Assembly: GCA_903813345.2 (NCBI GenBank)
Contig: CAIIXF020000001.1
Location: 13,659,915-13,723,914 of the forward strand
Source: Owenia fusiformis
Lineage: Eukaryota > Annelida > Polychaeta > Sabellida > Oweniidae
Length of the DNA stretch: 64,000 nt
Reading direction: 5' to 3'
Shown here piece by piece: positions 866 to 34,440 of this stretch (positions are counted from its first letter, which is position 1; each line of letters starts with the position of its first letter). Below the pieces are notes generated by a model, which was not told the DNA's origin, did not search any database, and worked only from the letters and a program-made list of their open reading frames with translations. The translations under genes and the position numbers were made by a program.

Positions 866-3800
866 TTATGAGGAGCTCAGTGACGTAGTATTTCCCAGTT
901 CCATTGGCTCTCCCTCTGAAAGATAATCATTCCACAAAGTGTTATTAATGGTGGTCAAAAATTTTTTGAATCGTTTCAAATATTTTTTATTCCACTTAGA
1001 TCTCTAAATTGGACCAATGTGGGAGTTAAATTCCCCATAATCATTGGCTCCCAAAGATGTGATTGGTTCCTCATTAATGATGAGGGTCAATTCAACAATG
1101 AAGGTCAACTCAAATGAGCAAAGACATTATGCACATAAAAATTGTAGGAAATTCAAAATCTTGAAATTAGCCAATTGACATTTAAAAGTTTTGAGAAAAT
1201 TCTAATGCATATAGTGTATAACTAATTTTACTGCACATTTCAAGTAAATAATGCACGGTAATCCATCTTACCTCCATGACTAGATACTGGCAATGTTTTG
1301 TGACTTCTCTCCGCCTCAATGAACATCTCATCCACTACATCCCAGAGGCAACTTTCAAGTGGAAATTCATTGTCCACTAGATTCACTAGGTAGTAATTGT
1401 CGTGTATAAAGTCTATGGTTTTGCGAGACACTGAATCATCAGGGTAAATATGACCCCAGCTTTCTTGCCAAAGACCAAAAGCTTCATCCTGAAAAACCAC
1501 AAAGATGGTCAAAATAAATTACATTATATTCTTCCACCTAACAAATTTCAACCGAAACATTTTTTCTCGGTAAAATATCACAAGTTATATTTTATATAAC
1601 AGTTCCAAAACTCTGTCTATAATTTCTAATTTCTCAAGTAAAGAGGAAATGCCCCACAATTCATAGAGGTAAGATAAGTCCACCTATGAATTCTGGGGTA
1701 TTCCCTCCTCTTCAACAAGCTCTATGTACCCACCTTCCAGTGTTTGAAGGCTATTGGATCAACTACTGTTGGCTGAATGATCTCCCTACCAGGGAAAACT
1801 CCCCATGTGACAGCTATAGGCTCCATTGAATCACAGTTGGAGTAGTCCTCTTCACCCTATTAACCATAAAAATAGATTGAATATAAAAATAGATTGAATA
1901 TGAATACTATATATTATATATGTGCAATAAAAATATTTATTTATACCAAAAAGTAAGGCACTGACAGTGTTATTTAGTTTGATCTGACGAGTGTTAATTC
2001 TTACCCATATAAAATATATGAATAGAGCGGGTGTACCAATCAATTTGAATTCTGTCAGGATCAGTGGTATAATAAAAAAAAAAAACATCCACATGTATAT
2101 TCATAATAATGATGAATCAAAAGTCTGATACTATTAGTACATCCTAAAGTCTTTATCTTTAGGATAGAGAAAAAAGAGGATTATAAAGTAAGAATAAGAA
2201 AAAGCTTAGACAAGAGTAGTAGGCCTAGACATGCAAATTAATTAGTAAAGAAATAGTAAGAAGCCATTGCCAGTGTTTACCTTATTCAACAAATGCAATT
2301 TCTGAGTTGAGCCAAAGTTTGTTATTTCATCGCTCCCCTGTTCAAAACCAAAGGAGAGATATGTTAACTACACGTACATGCAATCAAGAGTGCAAGAGTA
2401 GATAAAGCCAAAGCCAAAGATAAAGAAAATCATAATGCTCAGATTATAGGTTTAAGAATGAATAGGGTGCTTTTGCTATTAGTATAAGGCATGCAACTTT
2501 GAAAGTTAGGACTAATCAAGTCTTATTAGTAAAGATGTCAGGAAAAGAAGCAATGTCAAGCCATATTAGCTGCATTGTTAAAGATATGAAGGATTAAACT
2601 TGGTCTCGTCAAAATTCAGAACATCCTGCACCTTTCACCATCAATAAACTTTAACACAAACCTTTTCTTTTGAACAATAAAGCATATAAATCAACTTCTA
2701 TAATTATAAGCACTTGCCATGCTTAATATATTTACAGAAATCGTAAAATTGTAATCATTTGTACTAAGGTCTATTGATGCTTCAAGTTATAGGTTGTTTT
2801 TTTCAATTTAGGCATGTCTAAGACCAGAATTAAGCACTGCGTAATGTAAAAGACACATATACATACATTGTTGTTTATAATGTGGTAGTTAACTCGATCA
2901 GAATATTTCTGCAAGACTGTCTTCAGGGCATCAACATTCTCTCTGGGAGTGAAAAACTCTAAATATGCCTGGAAATATGTTCAACTACATGTAGTTATGT
3001 CTAATTCATGTATGTAACGCATAAATAAATTTAAAAAATAATTATTTTATTTCAAAGATGTCTTATAAAGCTACTGATATCAGAAATCTACAAAAAACAA
3101 CATGTGAACTGATAATATCTGAAAATCACTTTTAAACTAACCTTCTGGAAGATGTATCCATTTTTGTTCCCCCAGCCCAGGGCAGGATCACTTGATGACA
3201 CTGCATTGCAATTTGGTTGTGAATTGATTGTTAGAGCACCACGTCTATTGATATCTGCAAGCCTATCCTTAATCAAACCAGTCTCTGGGGATAACAGATC
3301 ATCATTCCATGGTAATGATGTCACCTTAAATTCATGTCAAAATGATTATAGCCTGATGGAGTAAGGAATTTACTTAGAATGTCTTGTATTGATTGCTCCA
3401 AAAACTAAATCATGTCATGACAATTCAAAATACTGCAAATAGCGTTAATTAGGTGATGTCAATAGTCAGTTTACAATGTGATATTTTATCCTATAGATTT
3501 TTATTTGAAATTGAATCAAACCAATTTACAACAAACCCTAGAAATAGTATATGTTGTATGACTACCTTTGTGCCCTGAGCATTGTCCTCCCCAGTGATGT
3601 ACTTGTGGAAAATATCCCAAACATCCTGTTCAGTCTGTAACTCTTGTCCCCACATCTTAAGCAGATCCTCTTTGGGAGTTTTAGATTTTAAATAGAACAA
3701 ATAATAGTCTGTGATTTCCCCAAATGCTGCCGAAGATGAGTTACCCCATCTGCCATTGGGAAACTCATCCCAGTTAGAAGTCCTGTGAATATAACTCTTT

Positions 3801-6800
3801 GGTCGGGACCTCCAGAATATTGGTCGAACATCTTCCGTACACCGTGTGTGATTGGCAGTTGGTTTCCAGGGAAGCGATCGTCGTGGTTCCTCGCACCACA
3901 TACCAAGTCTCTTAAGTATTTCAATCGTGGCGACCTCACGGTTTAATGTATAGAAATGTAAACCATGTACTAGGCCACTATCTAGACAAGTCTTACTTAG
4001 TTCAACAGCCATATCTATGCCAAAGTTTCTAATAGCTTCATCATTGTCTTTGATTGGGTTGATTGCATCAAGAATTTCTTGAGGGACTTCTAAACGGGAA
4101 AGTTTCACAATGTGTCGGAGAGATTGGTATGCCTGAAGTGAAGAAATGTTAAGTGTTAATTTACAACAAAAAAATCAAACATGATTACTAGATTTAATAC
4201 TAGATTTCTTGCATTTTAATTCAATTTATCACCAAAATGGCATATGCTGCAATGTAACATCAACTTTTAATGGAAAGTGCATGAGATGGCTTATATATAA
4301 GGCAGATCTTTTAAACAAAGTAATGCACAATAATAACAGGGGCTCACTACAAACAAAACTTAACAGGTGTTTTTGATTTCTTCAATAAAACTCGCAATAC
4401 CTGAATAGGCAAGATCCCTGGAATGATTGGACATTTGATTCCGATGGCTTGACAGTCTTTTACAAATGACAAGAACGTTTCAGCTTTGAAAAAGAGTTGG
4501 GTAATTATGAAATCTGCTCCAGCGTCAACCTTCTCTTTCAAGTACTTGAGATCATCTTCATAGGAAGTGCAGTCTGGATGTCCGGTTGGGTAACCTGGAA
4601 AATCATGAATTTTGAGACTTATTTCAGTATTATCACTTAAAATGACGCTACTCCTATTTGGTGATATGACCACCTTTTAAGCTGGGCCTAAGTAAACTTA
4701 TGGGCCGGTTTTTTAAGATGTTACATCACTTTGCAAACATGTAAACCAGATTTCTCTTTCATCTCAACCTACCTAAAAGTTAGGCTTTTAATATGAGTAT
4801 AACCATAGACACAAAAATTGAAGATAATTTAGGTCCAACATTTACATTTCAAAATATATAGATTTTCAAGTTTTTATAACAAAATTGATGATTGATTTCT
4901 TTACCTGCGACGCATATCACAAAATGGTCATCAAACTCTTGTTTGATATGTCTAACCAGATCAGTCGCATAGTTGCATCCACCTTCAGTCGGGGCCCAAT
5001 CTTCGTCTTGTGGGGGATCTGGAGTGAAAAGCCATTAAAAACCTTCCGAGTTATTAAGTCCAGTGTTAGTAAATGAGGGGGTTAAGGACTATGTGTTAGT
5101 TTATTTCTAAACAAGGCATTAACATGCAAGATGTCACCACCACCGAACATCAACTGACAAATAGCAACTGCCGAACACTATCTATCTAGTGGGAGACTAT
5201 AACAATTTAAAATTGCAGCATGTTCTTGGGATTTATATTTTAAGGAATCACTATTAAATATTTGTATCTACTCACCAAGCAACTCATAGTATAATACATG
5301 CACAAAAGTAGAGAAAATGTTCTGTGTATTCTAAATTCTCAAACAGCAAAGCTTAGAAACTTAGGTGTATGTTATGTGTATTCTAAATTCTCAAACAGCA
5401 AAGCTTAGACACTTACCACCTCTCAGTGCTAGAATATTCCTGATTCCCAGATCTTTGGCCTTTTGAAGGAACGCAGTAATGTGTTCCTTTGTACAATTAC
5501 AACAGGTCATGTGTAGCATGGTGTCTATGCCACAGTAGTTCAACATAGTTCCAGCTATCATTGTTGAGCTGGTAGGTTTGTTCGATGAGGGATCACCCGC
5601 TGGATGCCATGTGATGTCACAGAATAGAGGCTGACCTTCGCTCATACGGTCAAATCTGAAAAATACATAAATACAACTCAAAAACAGAACTAGTCAAAAC
5701 ACCCTTTTATTATTCAATTTTTGTCAAAATACTGGCCTAGGTATATTTATAGAAATATCAGTGATTCAGTTATATACTATTACAACCAGAACAACGGCAA
5801 CGCCAAAGCGTAGCAAATCCCATCGAACAGAAATCATCACTAGCCAAGTTGTCATCAGAAGAAGTATGGCCGACTACTCCCCAAAGTTTTATTAGACAAT
5901 GTGGCATGCTTAAAGTATTCACATATCAAATATGAACAAAATCGCTCCACTAATTTACAAGTTATAGTAAAAAACGTAAAAATGGTGGCCATTTTTCAAA
6001 ATGGCCGCCTTATACCCAAAGCGTCATTAGACAGTGTGCCATGCTTATAGTATTCACATATAAAATATGAACAAAATCGCTCTCATACTTTGTGAGTTAT
6101 AGTAAAAAATGTAAAATAACACAAGTAAAAATGGCGGCCATTTTTCAAAATGGCTGCCTACTACCCGAAATGTCATTAGACGTTGTGCCATGCTTAAAGT
6201 TTTCACACACCAAAAACAAAATTTACTACCTATAATGTCATTAGACATTGTGCCATGCTTAAAGTATTCACTTACCAAATATGAACAAAATCGCTCCACT
6301 ACTTTTTGACTTACAGTAAAAAATGTTAAATAACACACGTAAAAATGGCGGCCATTTTTCAAAATGGCCGCCTACTATTCAAAATGTCATTAGACATTGT
6401 GCCATGCTTAAAGTATTCACATACCAAATATGAACAAAATCGCTCCAATACTTTTCGACTTGCAGTAAAAAATGTTAAATAACACACGTAAAAATGGCGG
6501 CCATTTTTCAAAATGGCCGCCTACTACCCAAAATGTCATTAGACATTGTGCCATGCTTAAAGTATTCACATACCAAATATGAACAAAATCGCTCCACTAC
6601 TTTTCAAGTTACAGCAAAAATTGTAAAAATGACGTGCAAAGGCAGCCATTTTTCAAGATGGCTGCCATGTATTTCTTCTATATTTACATTTCTAGCTTAC
6701 ATTACATTAAAAACATATTGCTATTACAGTTTTATATGCAGTACCTAAATTACTGTAAAATCGGCACTAAAATGGCCGCCATTTCTTTTTGAGCGGCCAT

Positions 6801-12160: not shown

Positions 12161-12430
12161 AGGTCTAAATGACCATGGTCTATAATGACCACAGTCAAGG
12201 TCTAGATGACCACATGTTAGGTCTAAATGACCATAATTTAGGTCTAAATGACCACAGTTTAGGTCTAAATGACCACAGTTTAGGTCTAAATGACCACAGT
12301 TTAGGTCTGAATGACCACATGTTATTTCTAGATGACCACATTTTAGGTCTAAATGACCACTGTTTATGTCTGAATGCACACACCAAAGGTCCAAATGACC
12401 AAAGTTCAAGGCCTATAAACCAAAGTTTGA
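12161..12430. repeat. 21-bp minisatellite, ~12 units
   Basis: The unit GGTCTAAATGACCACAGTTTA is nearly perfect in the middle (12240-12310) and decays outward. Its core GGTCnnnnnGACC is palindromic. Because 21 is divisible by three, frames on both strands stay open (80-97 codons). These are repeat artefacts, not genes. It lies inside the 6.36-kb transposon. Confidence 0.92.
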
Positions 12431-24882: not shown

Positions 24883-27411
24883 TTATTTCAGCTCTACTTC
24901 TGCAAGGTTAAGTTCATCGATATCAATCTCTGTTCGTATCTTCATTGCACTTAGTTCTAATTTCTTCAGAGTCTCCTCAGTTAAGATTACTGACTCTAAA
25001 TCCTTTGTCAGTTTACCAGAATTATAATCCGAACTCAGTTCTTCAACTTGGGATTTTTTCATGCATAAATTTACCATTATACTGGTATCTGTAAGGAAGG
25101 TCCCCAAAACTAGGATTTCACGTTTCTGTTCGAAATACTTCAACATTGCTATGTGGCATGGAGTGCCTGTGTTATTTAAGATATCGTAAAATTTCTCGGC
25201 AGTGTATTCCAGTAAACCAAAAGCATTTCTGTTATTTTCGATATGTTCCTTACTGGTATATTTGGAATTATTTGAAGTACCTGGTCGATTTGAATGTACA
25301 TTCCTAGCACCATTAGACGTGGAGATATCTCGCTCTTTATATTTTTGTTCCTTTTTATGACCTCCAAAAAGACAGGAAAAACATAAACAATGGCAGCAAG
25401 ATTCGTTCTCTTTTTGTGGTTCTTCTATATCTAAAATCTCCAAATTTTCCATAGATCGTCGACGAGGCTCAATTTGAGCGATTGGACGTGGTTGGATAAT
25501 TTTGACGTCCTCTTCACTTTGTGTAATCCACTCTCTGCTTTTGGCCCATGCATTTTCTGTTGAATCATCTTTCTGTAGTTTGATTGCAGTCACTTTTATC
25601 TGAACCCCAACTTGGCCTGAAAATGTAAAATGGAAATGATTGCTTCAAATGTAAGTATTATAGGGAATTAATTGAAACAGAATAGAATCGTGTGCTAACG
25701 ATTGATCCTCTCTGACACTTATACATCACTTAAAGGCAGATGAAAAGGTGGATTTGAGAATGCCAGTAAAGTGCCAGAGGTAAATCTAATAAGGTTAGGA
25801 GGTTATAAAAGTGAGACATACATGAAACAAAGAAAATGGTTATCTATACATAATTTTTCCAGTTTTCTTTATAATATTTATTTTAGATATTATTATTAAC
25901 GTTGCAAGGAACAAATTCAAAATATTTGATCTAACTTAGCAGAATCAGAGAGTACATCATTGGGAGCCCATATCAGGCTGAGAAAAATTAATTTATTATA
26001 TACTGGCAAATACAGGGGGGGGGGGCATAGGACTATGTGCTATGTGCCTCAATTATTTCCAAAATTTGGACCCAATTTTTTGATTTTGGGGCCCAAAATC
26101 TTTTTTTACAATTTAAAATGTGCCCCCCCCCCCCCCTTTTTGGCTTCTGGATCCACCAGTGTTATACATGTATCGTGAAATGTTCTTGAAAATAGCATAC
26201 CTCGTTTGCGCTTTGTACCCAGGTATCCTGTAAATACAAGAAAACAATATTGAAATTGTAATAAACTGTTATTAACATGATCATATGTAACCAGAATACA
26301 CATGAACAGTATCCATGAATATCATATTACACATTAGTGCTACTAATGAGCTAAAAATCTCAAAATTAGGAAAATGGCACAAATTCATCAGCATTTCTAT
26401 GACAAATCAAATTATCACTGGATATTGGTTTAAAAGGTGATCACTGTGACTTGTAATTACAGTCAGTGTTAGCTGCACAGCTGTGCATATGATTACAACT
26501 ATGTAGGACAGGTTACATTATACTCATAGTTATGCATCAAAAAGAACAATAGAAAATATATATCATCTTCATTTCTCATACATGTACATACTGAGTTACT
26601 TGAGGGAACAATATTATGCTTCAGAGAAAATACAATCAAACTTTCTTATGATATTTATATTCAGGGCAAGTAGTTTCTTGAGTTGTTGGTTTTATCAGTT
26701 GTAATATTTTAATTGTGTTTGATGTAGCGTACTTGTGTTTATTGTTCAAATATCATGATTTACAGTAGATATCACATCATAGACTAAGAAATGAATGATA
26801 AAACAATTTGGCATTTTAAATGAAAACAATTTACTTTCTGGGTGACATAGTAATTACATAATGTTTATCCCCTTCAATTTAGTTCTTGCGTGACATCATA
26901 ATTGTCTATTGTCAGATGCAGTGTTCTAACAAGGATATTTTCTATAAGTCGATGCAAAATTCTCCTTATAGATGGTCAAAAATGCCTCTTTTGGTAATTT
27001 GCAACTTGGTGCAAATGAGTTTTCGAGTGGGTGCAAGCCAATTTTCCAAAGCTCAAGTTGGTGCAGCACCCAGTTGGTATAATGCAAGGGTGATCACTGA
27101 ATTGTCAAGAAAGTTCACCTACCTGAGCCTGACTTTGGCCTGATCCTCTCTCCCTCATCTAGCTGGTTCGCCAGTTGGTGCTGCCCCATCGTACGCAGTG
27201 CGTTGATGAACAGCTTGTATGCCATATCTCCGCCATTCTCTATGGTTTGTAACACAGCGATATTCACCTTCGCTTTACTTTTCTCAGCCCTTAACTCCTC
27301 GACAAATGCCTTCTCTAATACTCCATTTTGAATGAGATAATCAAATATGACATCGCAGTCGAGTTGTTCAATCACCTCGCGACGTGTGCTGAGTGGGCGT
27401 GTGTCGGGCAT
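24883..27411 (-). CDS. CARD plus TRADD-N-like domain protein, 3 exons, 349 aa
   Basis: Exons 27123-27411, 26201-26227 (27 nt) and 24883-25616. Every junction is GT-AG in phase 1, totalling 350 codons with TAA. Residues about 10-85 read as a CARD (FDYLIQNGVLEKAFVEEL, then GDMAYKLFINALRTMGQHQL). Residues 97-190 are a linker with basic GTKRKR, encoded by the micro-exon, and a cysteine cluster (Cys179, 180, 182, 184, 187) next to lysines, a plausible lipid-anchoring site. Residues about 228-349 resemble the TRADD N-terminal (TRAF-binding) fold seen in TRADD and in invertebrate NLR/adaptor proteins: HIAMLKYF, a strand, DYNSGKLTKDLESVILTEE, then a strand with alternating charges. The ATG follows an acceptor at 27441 by 29 nt, so an upstream non-coding exon is likely. 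By inference it is a cytosolic adaptor linking a CARD partner to TRAF-type signalling. The CARD call is firm; the C-terminal call is tentative. Confidence 0.85.
26010..26163. repeat. C-run repeat in CARD-gene intron
   Basis: Runs from a G11 tract to TGCCCCCCCCC..GGCTTCTGGATCCACCAGTG. It shares CCCAATTTTTTGATTTTGGGG- and GGGGCCCAAA-type phrases and the final TTCTGGATCC/TTCCAGATCC with 53130-53385. Its end lies 38 bp from the 27-nt micro-exon. Confidence 0.65.
26919..27099. mobile_element. TIR element, CAGTGATCTCCCC family, copy 1
   Basis: Starts CAGTGTTCTAACAAGGATAT and ends AATGCAAGGGTGATCACTG. Related in reverse orientation to 50864-51069: both contain GTGGGTGCA and GGTGCAGCACCCA. It ends 23 bp from the CARD exon's donor. 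Confidence 0.75.
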
Positions 27412-27441
27412 CTCATTCGCGTCACCATTGTAGTTGCTGCC

Positions 27442-29156: not shown

Positions 29157-32100
29157 TTAGATCATTGATACTCTGGCTCTATGCATGGAATATATTACAA
29201 GTGATATGGAGCAGAGTGAGTCGATGCTCTCTAAGGTTGAGCTCAACCCTAAAACAAAGTCCATCTTCTCAGCAAGTGACATACGGCCTTCACTCTCCAA
29301 CATTGTGAGTAGAGTCTGCCGTTCATAGGTAATTATATCACATTGTAGTATAAAATGTTCAATAGTGTCTCTTGAATTGATGCACAATGGGCAAACCCCA
29401 TTCTCAAAAGGATAAGACCCCGCTAGGAGTTTAAACATAAGTTTGCACTGTTTTTTGAAAATAGGTCTCAGTTTACATATGAGCCACCATATATTTGGCT
29501 GCACGTATGAGATGGATAATGTACAAGAATAAAATGATAAGGAACTATACAAAGAACACATCATTCTAATGCTATTTGCTTCATTACAGTATAAAGCATT
29601 TCTTACAATGCGTTTAAAACCTGATTTAGAGAGATATTCCCCAGACTGTATCATGTTCATAGATAAAATGGCAAAAGTGTACCGTTCAAGTGTTCTCCAA
29701 ATGATGGAAAGTGGAGAGTTATGCCGTCCATTCCCCCCTATGAGCCACAGCAATCTATGTATCAAGACGGTTTTGTAAATATTATTCATTGGTAACACTA
29801 TTATACTCCAGAAGAACATCATCCTCGAGAAATCTATCTGTCTTCTGATAGAAAGCCATCCAAGACCTGAAGCTGCTATAGGGTTCGGCGAACTTTTTGG
29901 GAGTGCCTGAATTCTTCTTCCGATTTCACGATGTGATATTTCCATTTGCTCTATTTCGTGATTACTATAGTCTATTACCTGGCAACCGTACAGTAGCTTG
30001 CTTATTGAGAAAGTCCAATATAACTTACTGGCCATTAGTGGGCAAAGGCCACCTGTTAACGAGCCAAGCCCCAATAACGAAAAATATTTCTGTTTTGATT
30101 TGCATATCGTTTGCTTTACAAAGTCGTTGTGGTTCCTAAGGGGTATCCCGACGTGCAGCTCTCCTGTTTTTTGTTGAATTGCACAGGGGCCAAGTAAAGC
30201 GGTATCATTGCCGTCGTCGGGTCTGCCGAAAATAAGAAGCGAGCATTTACCTGGATGGAAAGTGATTCGCCAGTATGAACTGTAATTCCACACGATGCTT
30301 AATAGTCTGTTCATACTTTGCATGCTAAGAGATAAAAGTGATAGGTCATCTGCGTACGCAACTACTGAGACGTCAGTGCCACCTATACGTACTCCACATT
30401 GCTCACCCACAATATCATACAAGAGATCTGCGAGGTAGAATTGGTAGACAATCATCGACATCACCCCGCCCTGATGGACACCTTGTTCGACGTTAAAACT
30501 GCTAGAACATTCACCGTCATATAAAATTGAACAGTTATAAGTTTTGTAGGACGTGTACATCATTCTCCAGAACTTTCCATTCATGCCGCATCTGTAAAGT
30601 TTGTAAAGAAAACCATCAATCCACATTGAATTGAAGGCTTTGCGCACGTCCAATAGAGAACAATATACAGTAGAACCCTTATCCCTACAGTGGGATATAG
30701 CTTCCTGTAATAAAAATGAAGTGTGAAGTGAAGAGCAGGAATCTATCGAGGCACCCTGTAGTTGTGGGATGTGTGCCAGGAAACGATGTTTACTGCGGCT
30801 GAGCAGCACGTTGTCAAATAGCTTCCGCAACGAGGACATCAGAGTTATATCACGGTAGTGGTCCGGATCTAGCGGGTCTTTATTCCCACCCTTAAACAAT
30901 GGTATGAGTAGTCCATTACAAAGACCCCGGGGGATATGTTCATGCATACGGATAATATTAAAAAATACACAAAGTACTGATACTAGGTTTGGACCGCCGA
31001 ATTTTAGGTGTTCAGCTGAAATTTTATCGCATCCGCACGCACGATTTGTGTTAAGGGCCTTAAGAGCATCATTAGTTTCGTCCTCTGTGATTGGCATATC
31101 AAGAATCCCGTCTTTGTTTGGCATCGATTCTGTTCTCAATGAAATCACCCGCCGTTGGATGTAATCGTGGAATTGATCATTAAAATGCGGGGAATTCCCA
31201 GGTGTAGCTAGTTTTGAGAAATGCCTCATCCACGCATTGCGAATTTCAGATGGATCCGATAAAACTACATCCTCATCCCGTATAGAGTTAATCCTTTGTG
31301 ATTTAGTTCCCCGACTCCTAGAGACAAGATGCCAATAAAGTCGTTGATCTATGGCGTCGTCTTGTAGTTTGTCCAGCTCTTTTTGTTCAAAATCGCGTTG
31401 CGCCTGAGAGTAAGCCTTCTTAAAGGCTTTGTTAGCAGCCTTATAACGTAAAAGTATCTCATTGTCCGACTGACGTGGGCGCCCTTCATTCACCCATGTG
31501 CGCCATGCAACATTTTTGGTTTTTACCAGATGTGAAAGATTAGGATTCCAGAAAGGTTTCTGATGCTTCCGGAATTTCTTGATAGGCACATCACAAGAAG
31601 ATTTGATAATCGTATCAACTACTAATTCACTAAAACTGTCAATTTCTTCATTCCTGATATCATTGGTTTTTAAAAGATGTCGCCCTTGTATAAGTAAAGG
31701 TTCAATGTTATGTTCGAGTTTCGTCGTGTAACAGGACGCAATCTCGTCATTAGACAGCTTATTCCAAGCGAACTGCTCACAAGGGGTTTTTGCACGCACA
31801 ATGGGTACAATATTGAATAAATCAAGTTTTGTTAGAATAACAAGATGATCGGATGACAAGTCTGGAGAATCCTCAAACACTTCACAGTATGTTATATTAC
31901 CCGCTAATTCGTGTGATATAGCGATGTGATCGATGTATGACGTTTGACCTGTGTTAATATGTGATATAAATGTGTACGTTGGTCCTACTGTGTCATTCAT
32001 CATATCCCTTATACAAAGACCGTTACTAATACACATATCAAAGAACAATTTTCCATTCGCAGATGGAATTCCTACACTTCTACTAGTATTACACAAATTG

Positions 32101-32642
32101 CCGACGTTTGCATTGACGTCACCCATTACAATCACCCTACCATTGTTACTACACACACCAATGAATTCATGCAATGTGTTCAGAACATCTTCATAACAAT
32201 CATTAACACATGTTGATTGTGGCAAATACACAGAAAAAATGTAGATTGGTACATCTAACACAATTTCAATACAGACAATCCTATCAGTACAAAATTTAGT
32301 AACAGGTAATGTATTTGACAGAGATTTCCTCCATAAAATAGCCACGCCACCATGCCCCCATACTTGACCACAATGCATTGGGTTGAGCAGTCTGCTACTA
32401 CGAGAAAGCATGTTGAAATCATTTTGCATTAAATTGAGTTTAAACGCATTACATTCATACATTTTGTGTTCTGATATACATATGATATCATTCTCACGCA
32501 TTAGCTTATGGAGTAGTATCTGAGATGTGTTAAACCCGTTTATATTCCACTGACACAAGTTTAAGAACACCATAGTGACAATTAAATACAGCATGTACAT
32601 ATAAGTCATAACTTTAATAGGACCTGTCATTCCATGCGTCAT
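29157..32642 (-). CDS. Retrotransposon ORF2: AP endonuclease and reverse transcriptase, 1161 aa
   Basis: Nicks target DNA and copies the element RNA by target-primed reverse transcription. Residues about 25-270 are an exonuclease-endonuclease-phosphatase domain: QWNING (Asn33-35), SEHK (Glu58), MGDVNANVG (174-181), SYIDHIAIS (235-243), SSDH (263-266). The reverse transcriptase covers about 570-840: IPLFKGG, YRDITLMSSLRKLFD, motif A SLLDVRKAFNS (Asp665), motif B QGVHQGGVMS, motif C AYADDL (763-766 YADD), then LHVGIPL. The C-terminus has a CPLC..H..C knuckle (Cys1084, Cys1087, His1096, Cys1101). Catalytic residues are present and there is no stop or frameshift. The first ATG (32640-32642) lies within the last codons of ORF1, so translation may be by termination-reinitiation; a later ATG near 32607 is possible. 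Confidence 0.96.
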   Translation of the reverse strand: MTHGMTGPIKVMTYMYMLYLIVTMVFLNLCQWNINGFNTSQILLHKLMRENDIICISEHKMYECNAFKLNLMQNDFNMLSRSSRLLNPMHCGQVWGHGGVAILWRKSLSNTLPVTKFCTDRIVCIEIVLDVPIYIFSVYLPQSTCVNDCYEDVLNTLHEFIGVCSNNGRVIVMGDVNANVGNLCNTSRSVGIPSANGKLFFDMCISNGLCIRDMMNDTVGPTYTFISHINTGQTSYIDHIAISHELAGNITYCEVFEDSPDLSSDHLVILTKLDLFNIVPIVRAKTPCEQFAWNKLSNDEIASCYTTKLEHNIEPLLIQGRHLLKTNDIRNEEIDSFSELVVDTIIKSSCDVPIKKFRKHQKPFWNPNLSHLVKTKNVAWRTWVNEGRPRQSDNEILLRYKAANKAFKKAYSQAQRDFEQKELDKLQDDAIDQRLYWHLVSRSRGTKSQRINSIRDEDVVLSDPSEIRNAWMRHFSKLATPGNSPHFNDQFHDYIQRRVISLRTESMPNKDGILDMPITEDETNDALKALNTNRACGCDKISAEHLKFGGPNLVSVLCVFFNIIRMHEHIPRGLCNGLLIPLFKGGNKDPLDPDHYRDITLMSSLRKLFDNVLLSRSKHRFLAHIPQLQGASIDSCSSLHTSFLLQEAISHCRDKGSTVYCSLLDVRKAFNSMWIDGFLYKLYRCGMNGKFWRMMYTSYKTYNCSILYDGECSSSFNVEQGVHQGGVMSMIVYQFYLADLLYDIVGEQCGVRIGGTDVSVVAYADDLSLLSLSMQSMNRLLSIVWNYSSYWRITFHPGKCSLLIFGRPDDGNDTALLGPCAIQQKTGELHVGIPLRNHNDFVKQTICKSKQKYFSLLGLGSLTGGLCPLMASKLYWTFSISKLLYGCQVIDYSNHEIEQMEISHREIGRRIQALPKSSPNPIAASGLGWLSIRRQIDFSRMMFFWSIIVLPMNNIYKTVLIHRLLWLIGGNGRHNSPLSIIWRTLERYTFAILSMNMIQSGEYLSKSGFKRIVRNALYCNEANSIRMMCSLYSSLSFYSCTLSISYVQPNIWWLICKLRPIFKKQCKLMFKLLAGSYPFENGVCPLCINSRDTIEHFILQCDIITYERQTLLTMLESEGRMSLAEKMDFVLGLSSTLESIDSLCSISLVIYSMHRARVSMI

Positions 32643-34377
32643 ACTGCTCGGTATGGTATTTGTTTCGGATCCTCTTTACAGCCTGTTGGAACTGGCCCCG
32701 ATGGTTATCATCCTTTCTATGATTATCAGATTCATTATAATTGTTAGATCTTTCATCATAGTCCTTTTCATCATAGTACTGTCTATCATCATGATCATCA
32801 TTTTTTTGCCTCTCATCATACATGTAGTCATCATCGAGGTGTCGTCTCTTGTCGAAATCATCATTGTTATGTCGCCTCTCATCATCTTCATGGTACTGTT
32901 TTACATCACGATTGCGATGCTCATCACGTCTGGGTCGATTGATGTTGCTGCTGGAACCGTAGGTGGAACGACCTCTGAAACGTGGGGGGATCCTATCCTC
33001 CTGGTCCCCTACCCAGTAGCCACCATCGGGTCTCTGCTTCTGTCGCCGAGGTCTGGAAATCCACTCACGACTATTCACGTCATCAGGCCACATATCACTA
33101 TCAATGGCCCTATTGAACATCGAGCTAGGTACGTATATTTTACATCCTACCCTATTACGGGAAACTTTGTTATGAATAACATATATTTGGTTTATTCTCA
33201 AACCTAAATCGTGAGCGTGTTTAAGCACTAGATCCTTTGTGGTCTCATCCGAATCATCAATACCCTGAGAGATGTTTTCCAAATACACTATACGCGATGG
33301 CTCATTTTTTACTCCACATAGTTTCTTTGTCGTTGCAGTTCCACGCCCGCTGTTGCAAGATGTGAGGACACCTGATTTGGAGAACTTCGATGTCCCCTTA
33401 ACCTCCTTGTCGGGTTGAGGTTTTGTTGGAGGAATGGCAGGGGCACGGGCTGGAGGAGACGTCGAGGAGTCAATCAGCTTCGGATCTGGAGCCACTAGTG
33501 GTGGGAAATTTATTGGATCTACGGGAATTGATGCAACTGTCGTAGAGCAATCAGAACCACTACTGGTGGTCATTATAGGGGGGACATCCAACGTTGCACA
33601 TCTACTTGTAGTTGTGGGTTTTGTTAACGTATTACTTGGCGACATAGCTGTCTTAACAGAGAGTTGCCGGTTATTTGAGCCAGGACTATTAGTATCAGAA
33701 CTACTCACAACACTGGGCTTTTGAATAGATATATCGCTTTCACAGCTGGCCCGCGGCTTTAATCCCACGTCGATTTGGGCTGCTGCGTTTTCGTTATTAG
33801 GCTTATTGCTCAGCAGGCATTCGTGTTTACAAACAGTACATGTCACTACGACCTTCTGGTTTTTTAGCTCAGCAAATGCGATTTCAAGTTCCTTTATTTT
33901 GTTGACCAATATAATATAATGTTCCTTAAGACCACTAACACCCAACGATGCTATCGTTTTAACTGCATCGGTGCCGTTGTCATCATTCACAGTGTCTTTT
34001 TTAACAAAAGTCTCTATCGCAGAGATAGTCGAAGCATTGAGGACTGATCGTGGGAATGGTGATGAATCAACGTCGGCACAATATTTATACAACTCGTATA
34101 TATCTCGGCATATAGCCTTCAGTTTATCGGGACCTCTACGCAATTTCAATCCCAAATCAATAGACTTATTACCAACCTCTGTCTGCCATTTAGCTTGTGC
34201 TGCTTCCAAAAGAGTTTCTCTCGTTTCACACAATAGACCCTCGTCAAACTCGTCACCCAATGACTCAACAATGTCATCCTTTGGCTCACAGTCAATTTTT
34301 TGGAGAAAGAATTGCACACTTTCTTCAATATCCATCATGTAGGGCGGCGGAACATCCATTGTAACGGTATTATCCAT
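32614..34377 (-). CDS. Retrotransposon ORF1: RNA-binding Gag-like protein, 587 aa
   Basis: Probable RNA-binding partner that packages element RNA. The N-terminal half is acidic to neutral, with a predicted helix around 150-172 followed by CTVCKHEC (180-187). Residues 210-340 are Ser/Thr/Pro-rich linker. About 361-445 (SRIVYLENIS to WISRPRR) looks like an RRM-type or related nucleic-acid-binding fold. The tail 480-575 is very rich in Arg, His, Asp and Tyr. The start is ATGGATAATACC, with AATGG context. The stop TAA overlaps ORF2 by 29 nt in a different frame. Antisense hydrophobic ORFs across the tail are shadows of its biased codons. Confidence 0.88.
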   Translation of the reverse strand: MDNTVTMDVPPPYMMDIEESVQFFLQKIDCEPKDDIVESLGDEFDEGLLCETRETLLEAAQAKWQTEVGNKSIDLGLKLRRGPDKLKAICRDIYELYKYCADVDSSPFPRSVLNASTISAIETFVKKDTVNDDNGTDAVKTIASLGVSGLKEHYIILVNKIKELEIAFAELKNQKVVVTCTVCKHECLLSNKPNNENAAAQIDVGLKPRASCESDISIQKPSVVSSSDTNSPGSNNRQLSVKTAMSPSNTLTKPTTTSRCATLDVPPIMTTSSGSDCSTTVASIPVDPINFPPLVAPDPKLIDSSTSPPARAPAIPPTKPQPDKEVKGTSKFSKSGVLTSCNSGRGTATTKKLCGVKNEPSRIVYLENISQGIDDSDETTKDLVLKHAHDLGLRINQIYVIHNKVSRNRVGCKIYVPSSMFNRAIDSDMWPDDVNSREWISRPRRQKQRPDGGYWVGDQEDRIPPRFRGRSTYGSSSNINRPRRDEHRNRDVKQYHEDDERRHNNDDFDKRRHLDDDYMYDERQKNDDHDDRQYYDEKDYDERSNNYNESDNHRKDDNHRGQFQQAVKRIRNKYHTEQYDAWNDRSY

Positions 34378-34440
34378 TATACATAGCCTATGAACTTAGA
34401 TCCATACGATAACAAGTACAAGTACGAGTATTTTTATTTC

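Follow-up and report, generated by a model that had tools for sequence, protein, structure and literature searches.

The TRADD N-terminal domain (TRADD-N) is an RRM-like sandwich that, according to the text of PMC8195603, occurs in TRADD, DEDD2 and NCOA6 and in large invertebrate expansions, where it often adjoins a DED or another death-like domain. Proteins combining a death-like domain with TRADD-N include DEDD2 and the expansions described there in Crassostrea, brachiopods, cnidarians, amphioxus (Branchiostoma) and the sponge Amphimedon; TRADD itself is confined to vertebrates (PMC8195603). The turn between strands beta2 and beta3 carries a motif composed of a tiny residue and a conserved serine. 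In TRADD, this serine, Ser67, is a key contact with the MATH domain of TRAF2 (PMC8195603), and S454 of TRAF2 bonds Q143 of TRADD (PMC7215387). Oyster MAVS is an adaptor with a CARD-Death-transmembrane architecture and binds TRAF6 (PMC5557890).

The gene described here lies on the minus strand of the window, the whole 64,000-nucleotide stretch of DNA that was analysed. It appears to unite a CARD with a diverged version of the domain through which human TRADD docks, and it probably encodes, as judged from its sequence, a DEDD2-type adaptor with a CARD. The pairing of CARD and TRADD-N is unusual; the class to which it belongs, adaptors of immunity and cell death in animals, is already known. An earlier note on this DNA had reported, at 24883-27411, an N-terminal CARD, a cysteine cluster and a C-terminal TRADD-N-like domain, and had read them as a possible undescribed adaptor that would link CARD partners to TRAF signalling. 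As an observation, this is confirmed as a whole; as an interpretation, it is partly supported.

Gene model and surroundings

Three exons on the minus strand join in phase into 350 codons including the stop, which correspond to 349 residues with no internal stop. The exons and the features that they carry are as follows.

27123..27411, minus strand: coding exon 1, 289 nt, with the ATG at 27411; residues 1-96 plus one base; carries the CARD
27160..27387, minus strand: CARD, residues 9-84, from Pfam PF00619, a genome scan and solved-structure matches
26201..26227, minus strand: predicted micro-exon, 27 nt, adding nine residues that include the short basic run KRKR
24883..25616, minus strand: coding exon 3, 734 nt with the TAA stop; linker, cysteine cluster and TRADD-N-like domain
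25372..25398, minus strand: cysteine cluster CCHCLCFSC, residues 179-187, followed by lysines
24886..25161, minus strand: TRADD-N-like domain, about residues 258-349, scored with TRADD-N profiles built without the candidate

All four intron ends are GT/AG, and the donor of exon 1 reads CAG/GTAGGT. In a simple weight matrix with assumed base frequencies, this donor scores 7.1 bits and the acceptor of exon 3 scores 6.8 bits, and the predicted micro-exon has an acceptor of 6.0 bits and a donor of 4.4 bits. The interval offers 32 in-phase open candidates 3-60 nt long, and the called micro-exon ranks best among them; the frame stays open without it as well. The three exons are predicted to be spliced at sites that are plausible to good. 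The earlier claim of three exons joining in phase into 349 codons agrees with the frame and with the intron ends, the splice sites themselves being predicted.

The gene model would be wrong if the CARD exon and exon 3 belonged to separate transcripts, or if an extra coding exon lay upstream. An upstream coding exon is possible because a weak acceptor-like site (0.5 bits) lies at 27440 and the in-frame stretch ahead of the ATG is open; in addition, the three-exon join is predicted from sequence alone. However, the exon phases are compatible, the splice sites are good, exon 3 sits within a 253-residue open frame, and there are no other minus-strand ORFs of at least 85 residues between the CARD exon and exon 3. 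We consider an error of this kind very improbable. In window positions 27411-27440, also on the minus strand, an out-of-frame ATG stands just ahead of the called start, and its short frame overlaps that start.

The surroundings contain several further elements. A LINE-type open frame of 1172 residues with endonuclease and reverse transcriptase domains (window 29160-32675, minus strand) lies some 1.7 kb upstream of the exon that carries the CARD; it is overlapped by an upstream 593-residue open frame with no Pfam match at E 0.01 (window 32617-34395, minus strand). Retrotransposons are described beside TRADD-N genes of the DEDD2 clade in the text of PMC8195603. A possible synteny anchor is a methylenetetrahydrofolate reductase gene, of which exons with the domains MTHFR and MTHFR_C lie at window 1243-4676, minus strand. 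A 21-bp tandem repeat of 10.9 copies, open in one frame per strand, occupies window 12177-12406. In the genome as a whole, 38 of 52 forkhead candidates are matches, spread over nine of the contigs C1-C12 with a group of four on C8; the Fox genes of Owenia fusiformis occupy nine of 12 chromosomes (PMC9539403), under different chromosome numbers, so that an oweniid annelid is a reasonable guess for the source.

The CARD and the cysteine cluster

The N-terminal CARD is clear, as the earlier note had stated. In a Pfam hmmscan, PF00619 matches residues 9-84 with 37.3 bits and an E value of 2.9e-9, exceeding the curated cut-off of 23.9 bits, and a CARD scan of the genome gives 40.0 bits at the same bases, one of 38 matches among 43 candidates scored. 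On the full protein, Pfam reports the CARD alone, with no C-terminal death domain and no DED. When the CARD was compared with the sequences of solved structures (22 sequences at E up to 1), a designed protein matched best (1.1e-5), followed by caspase-9 (0.0009-0.003), APAF1 (from 0.007), RAIDD (0.013) and CARD8 (0.17); no MAVS or RIG-I chain is among these 22. A phmmer search of solved structures with the full protein gives mostly CARDs and a few chance matches, and TRADD is absent from the 22 sequences found up to E 10. Among the NLR, caspase or RIG-I-like partners suggested earlier, the sequence hints at a caspase- or APAF1-like upstream partner, caspase-9 and APAF1 being the nearest natural solved chains. 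The hits from a protein search of the same genome (10 candidates scored) were the two long exons of the gene itself and three weak matches limited to a CARD (E 0.58-0.74); no paralogue was found among them.

Residues 179-187 hold five of the eight cysteines of the protein, a concentration equalled by none of 20,000 protein shuffles. The compact cysteine cluster near lysines, another element of the earlier description, is real as composition. It may be a site of S-acylation or a metal site, and the basic run encoded by the micro-exon may have a targeting role.

Likeness of the C-terminal domain to TRADD-N

All TRADD-N profiles were built with the candidate left out, and its C-terminal 135 residues served as the target. 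The full set has 18 members: three domains from the same genome, human TRADD (sequence checked against 1f3v) and 14 bacterial domains (14 of 21 cyanobacterial loci). The own-genome members were obtained with PF20694. Two lie above the cut-off, one in an NCOA6-like protein that also matches PF13820 and one in a protein that we take to be DEDD-like. The third TRADD-N-like domain of this genome, L008 (G000:C523:36844-36954), falls below the cut-off; an open frame near it has letters suggestive of RNF213-type proteins, and nothing convincing was found for this frame in Pfam. A three-member metazoan profile was made from the DEDD-like protein, L008 and human TRADD, leaving out the NCOA6-like protein. 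For several members only part of the domain was entered, and the NCOA6-like sequence aligned poorly, a caveat for the scores below.

The three-metazoan-member profile scores the candidate at 21.7 bits (single-comparison E 9.1e-9), the four-metazoan-member profile at 15.9 bits and the all-18 profile at 14.1 bits, and none of 5000 shuffles does as well with any of these three. An earlier 17-member profile gave 13.1 bits, equalled by one of 5000 shuffles. Much weaker scores came from the DEDD-like-only profile (8.4 bits; matched or beaten by 2 of 5000 shuffles) and from the bacterial-only profile (7.4 bits; 8 of 5000). Since six models were tried, the best score is to be discounted accordingly. 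The decoys were 816 ORFs, made up of 182 from the window with exon 3 of the gene itself taken out, 35 from loci of the same genome and 600 from cyanobacterial loci. None reaches the score of the full protein with the all-18, four- and three-metazoan models, and one of the 816 does so with each of the DEDD-like-only and bacterial-only models. In E. coli, none of 212 windows from 44 proteins reaches the candidate's score with any of five models. On the full protein, the three-member model totals 24.8 bits, of which the TRADD-N stretch alone provides 18.4 bits; a spurious stretch of 4.4 bits falls inside the CARD.

When each of the 18 members was held out and the model was built from the other 17, the candidate scored 9.0-16.7 bits, above 3 of the 18 and below 15. 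The held-out members below it are the DEDD-like protein (0.1), TRADD (-0.6) and the NCOA6-like protein (5.7); those above it are L008 (12.4, versus 9.0 for the candidate) and the 14 bacterial domains (26.4-95.6). In the three-member version, the DEDD-like protein scores 20.7 (candidate 13.8), L008 14.4 (12.4) and TRADD 6.8 (23.2). These scores place the candidate domain within the range of the diverged animal members and not of the bacterial ones.

The profile comparison proposed in the earlier note had a divided outcome. With the metazoan three, hhalign gives 40.5%, versus a maximum of 3.1% in 150 shuffles, but Pfam hmmscan of the C-terminal region finds no TRADD-family match up to E 10, a search whose speed filters lose most matches above about 0.1. 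The hhalign values are 14.4% with all 18 members (maximum of 2.3% in shuffles) and 11.9% with the bacterial members, for which there is no shuffle baseline; they point modestly in the same direction as the profile scores. The candidate domain is missing from the genome matches listed for PF20694 (10 scored candidates) and PF09034 (one), and NCBIfam and PHROGs give no matches in the C-terminal region. In the alignment, the domain is 21% identical to the DEDD-like protein of the same genome. Its serine at residue 284 aligns with the conserved TRADD-N serine of the beta2-beta3 turn. The preceding residue is a threonine versus the usual glycine, so the turn keeps the serine of the motif and resembles its tiny residue only loosely. 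Single-sequence AlphaFold2 models of the region are all-helical, with pLDDT values of 40 and 47, a low confidence that makes them uninformative on the fold, and they lend no support to an RRM-like sandwich. TRADD was also the top solved-structure match to an alignment holding the candidate and human TRADD, a result set aside as evidence because TRADD itself was in the query.

The C-terminal region could alternatively be an unrelated, lineage-specific region that resembles TRADD-N by chance, as the silence of Pfam, the weak bacterial-only and DEDD-only scores, the low hhalign probability with all 18 members and the all-helical, low-confidence models would allow. The shuffle, decoy and leave-one-out results of the metazoan and mixed profiles and the retained serine speak against chance, and we judge this reading quite unlikely. 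With the metazoan and mixed profiles, the resemblance to TRADD-N exceeds what chance would give, in keeping with the earlier claim of a TRADD-N-like domain; with the bacterial-only and DEDD-only profiles, it is marginal.

Candidate mechanism and relation to known adaptors

We favour, as a reasonably probable reading, an intracellular adaptor with two working ends, akin to DEDD2 and TRADD, in which a CARD replaces the DED or death domain. The N-terminal CARD would join CARDs assembling on a CARD-containing protein upstream, or nucleate such an assembly, and this would cluster the C-terminal TRADD-N domains. The exposed face of the TRADD-N sheet around the conserved serine would then serve as the dock for a regulator or effector further downstream. 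Through the cysteine cluster, the assembly may be kept membrane-bound; the micro-exon, if optional, may alter localisation through its basic run. Possible partners exist in the same genome, which has, besides the 38 CARD matches, 16 TRAF/meprin-type MATH matches among 36 candidates (12 of the 16 being nearly full-length domains). The genome also has one match to the RIG-I C-terminal domain.

Two further readings are narrower forms of this general CARD-adaptor explanation. The first is that the protein recruits TRAFs, its TRADD-N domain docking a TRAF2-like MATH domain and connecting CARD partners, possibly at a membrane, with signalling of the NF-kB type, much as oyster MAVS recruits TRAF6 (PMC5557890). 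The TRADD-N likeness, the retained serine, and the MATH and RIG-I C-terminal domains of the genome are consistent with this proposal. However, its C-terminus falls at roughly TRADD residue 126-137, depending on the alignment and with chain numbering taken as residue numbering, and so the protein stops short of the segment with the TRAF2-contacting Q143 (contact described in PMC7215387). None of three linear TRAF2/TRAF6 motif patterns, partly assumed, is present in it, and no RLR or MAVS chain is among the CARD matches to solved sequences. The missing segment and motifs tell against the earlier claim of TRAF binding. Taken together, the retained serine, the absent Q143 segment and TRAF motifs, and the MATH domains of the genome lead us to prefer an adaptor that is driven by its CARD and docks through TRADD-N, for which a TRAF is an unlikely partner.

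The second narrower form is a DEDD2-like nuclear regulator, in which a CARD stands in for the DED, the basic run of the micro-exon acts as a nuclear signal, and TRADD-N contacts nuclear partners. The alignment with the DEDD-like protein of the same genome favours it. The DEDD-like sequence by itself finds the candidate weakly, however, the cysteine cluster suggests otherwise, and the basic run as a nuclear signal is a pattern that we assume, which also counts against the proposal. The order of a death-fold domain first and TRADD-N later is shared with DEDD2 (PMC8195603). On balance, a nuclear regulator is somewhat unlikely.

Returning to the favoured CARD-type adaptor, one of its closest counterparts is DEDD2, also a small protein in which a TRADD-N-type domain comes after a death-fold domain. 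DEDD2 begins with a DED, whereas the candidate has a CARD, a cysteine cluster and a TRADD-N domain that Pfam does not report. The death-like plus TRADD-N proteins of PMC8195603 likewise come from marine invertebrates and have the death-like domain first; those families are expanded and usually carry a DED and variable further domains, whereas the candidate has a CARD, no further domain and no paralogue found. TRADD also unites TRADD-N and a death-fold domain in one adaptor, but the candidate has the opposite order, a CARD for the death domain and no counterpart of the Q143 segment. With oyster MAVS, for which TRAF recruitment is a feature (PMC5557890), it shares being a protostome CARD adaptor. 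No death domain was found in the candidate, in contrast to the CARD-Death-transmembrane MAVS, and its CARD is nearest those of caspase-9 and APAF1 among natural solved chains.

The earlier suggestion of a possible undescribed death-fold adaptor was framed partly off the mark, as TRADD-N is not confined to TRADD and proteins joining a death-like domain to TRADD-N are published in PMC8195603. A CARD adjoining TRADD-N is not named in the text of that paper, its figures and source data aside. Among the matches listed for CARD with TRADD or TRADD-N in the open-licence literature on molluscs, invertebrates, amphioxus and annelids, only PMC8195603 centres on TRADD-N architectures; given the limited scope of the literature covered, this does not establish that the combination is unreported.

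In its boldest form, the adaptor would work at a membrane, linking CARD assemblies without an intermediary to the docking face of TRADD-N, and the micro-exon would act as a switch that adds a basic targeting run; such an adaptor would be an invertebrate MAVS-like hub made from TRADD parts rather than built around a transmembrane CARD protein. This form is improbable. If the favoured reading is true, TRADD-N adaptors would reach into the CARD branch of the death fold as well. It would also suggest that, in animals other than vertebrates, diverged TRADD-N domains escape the curated profiles, and the candidate is a small, testable protein for the question of whether docking of TRADD-N to TRAFs predates the vertebrates.
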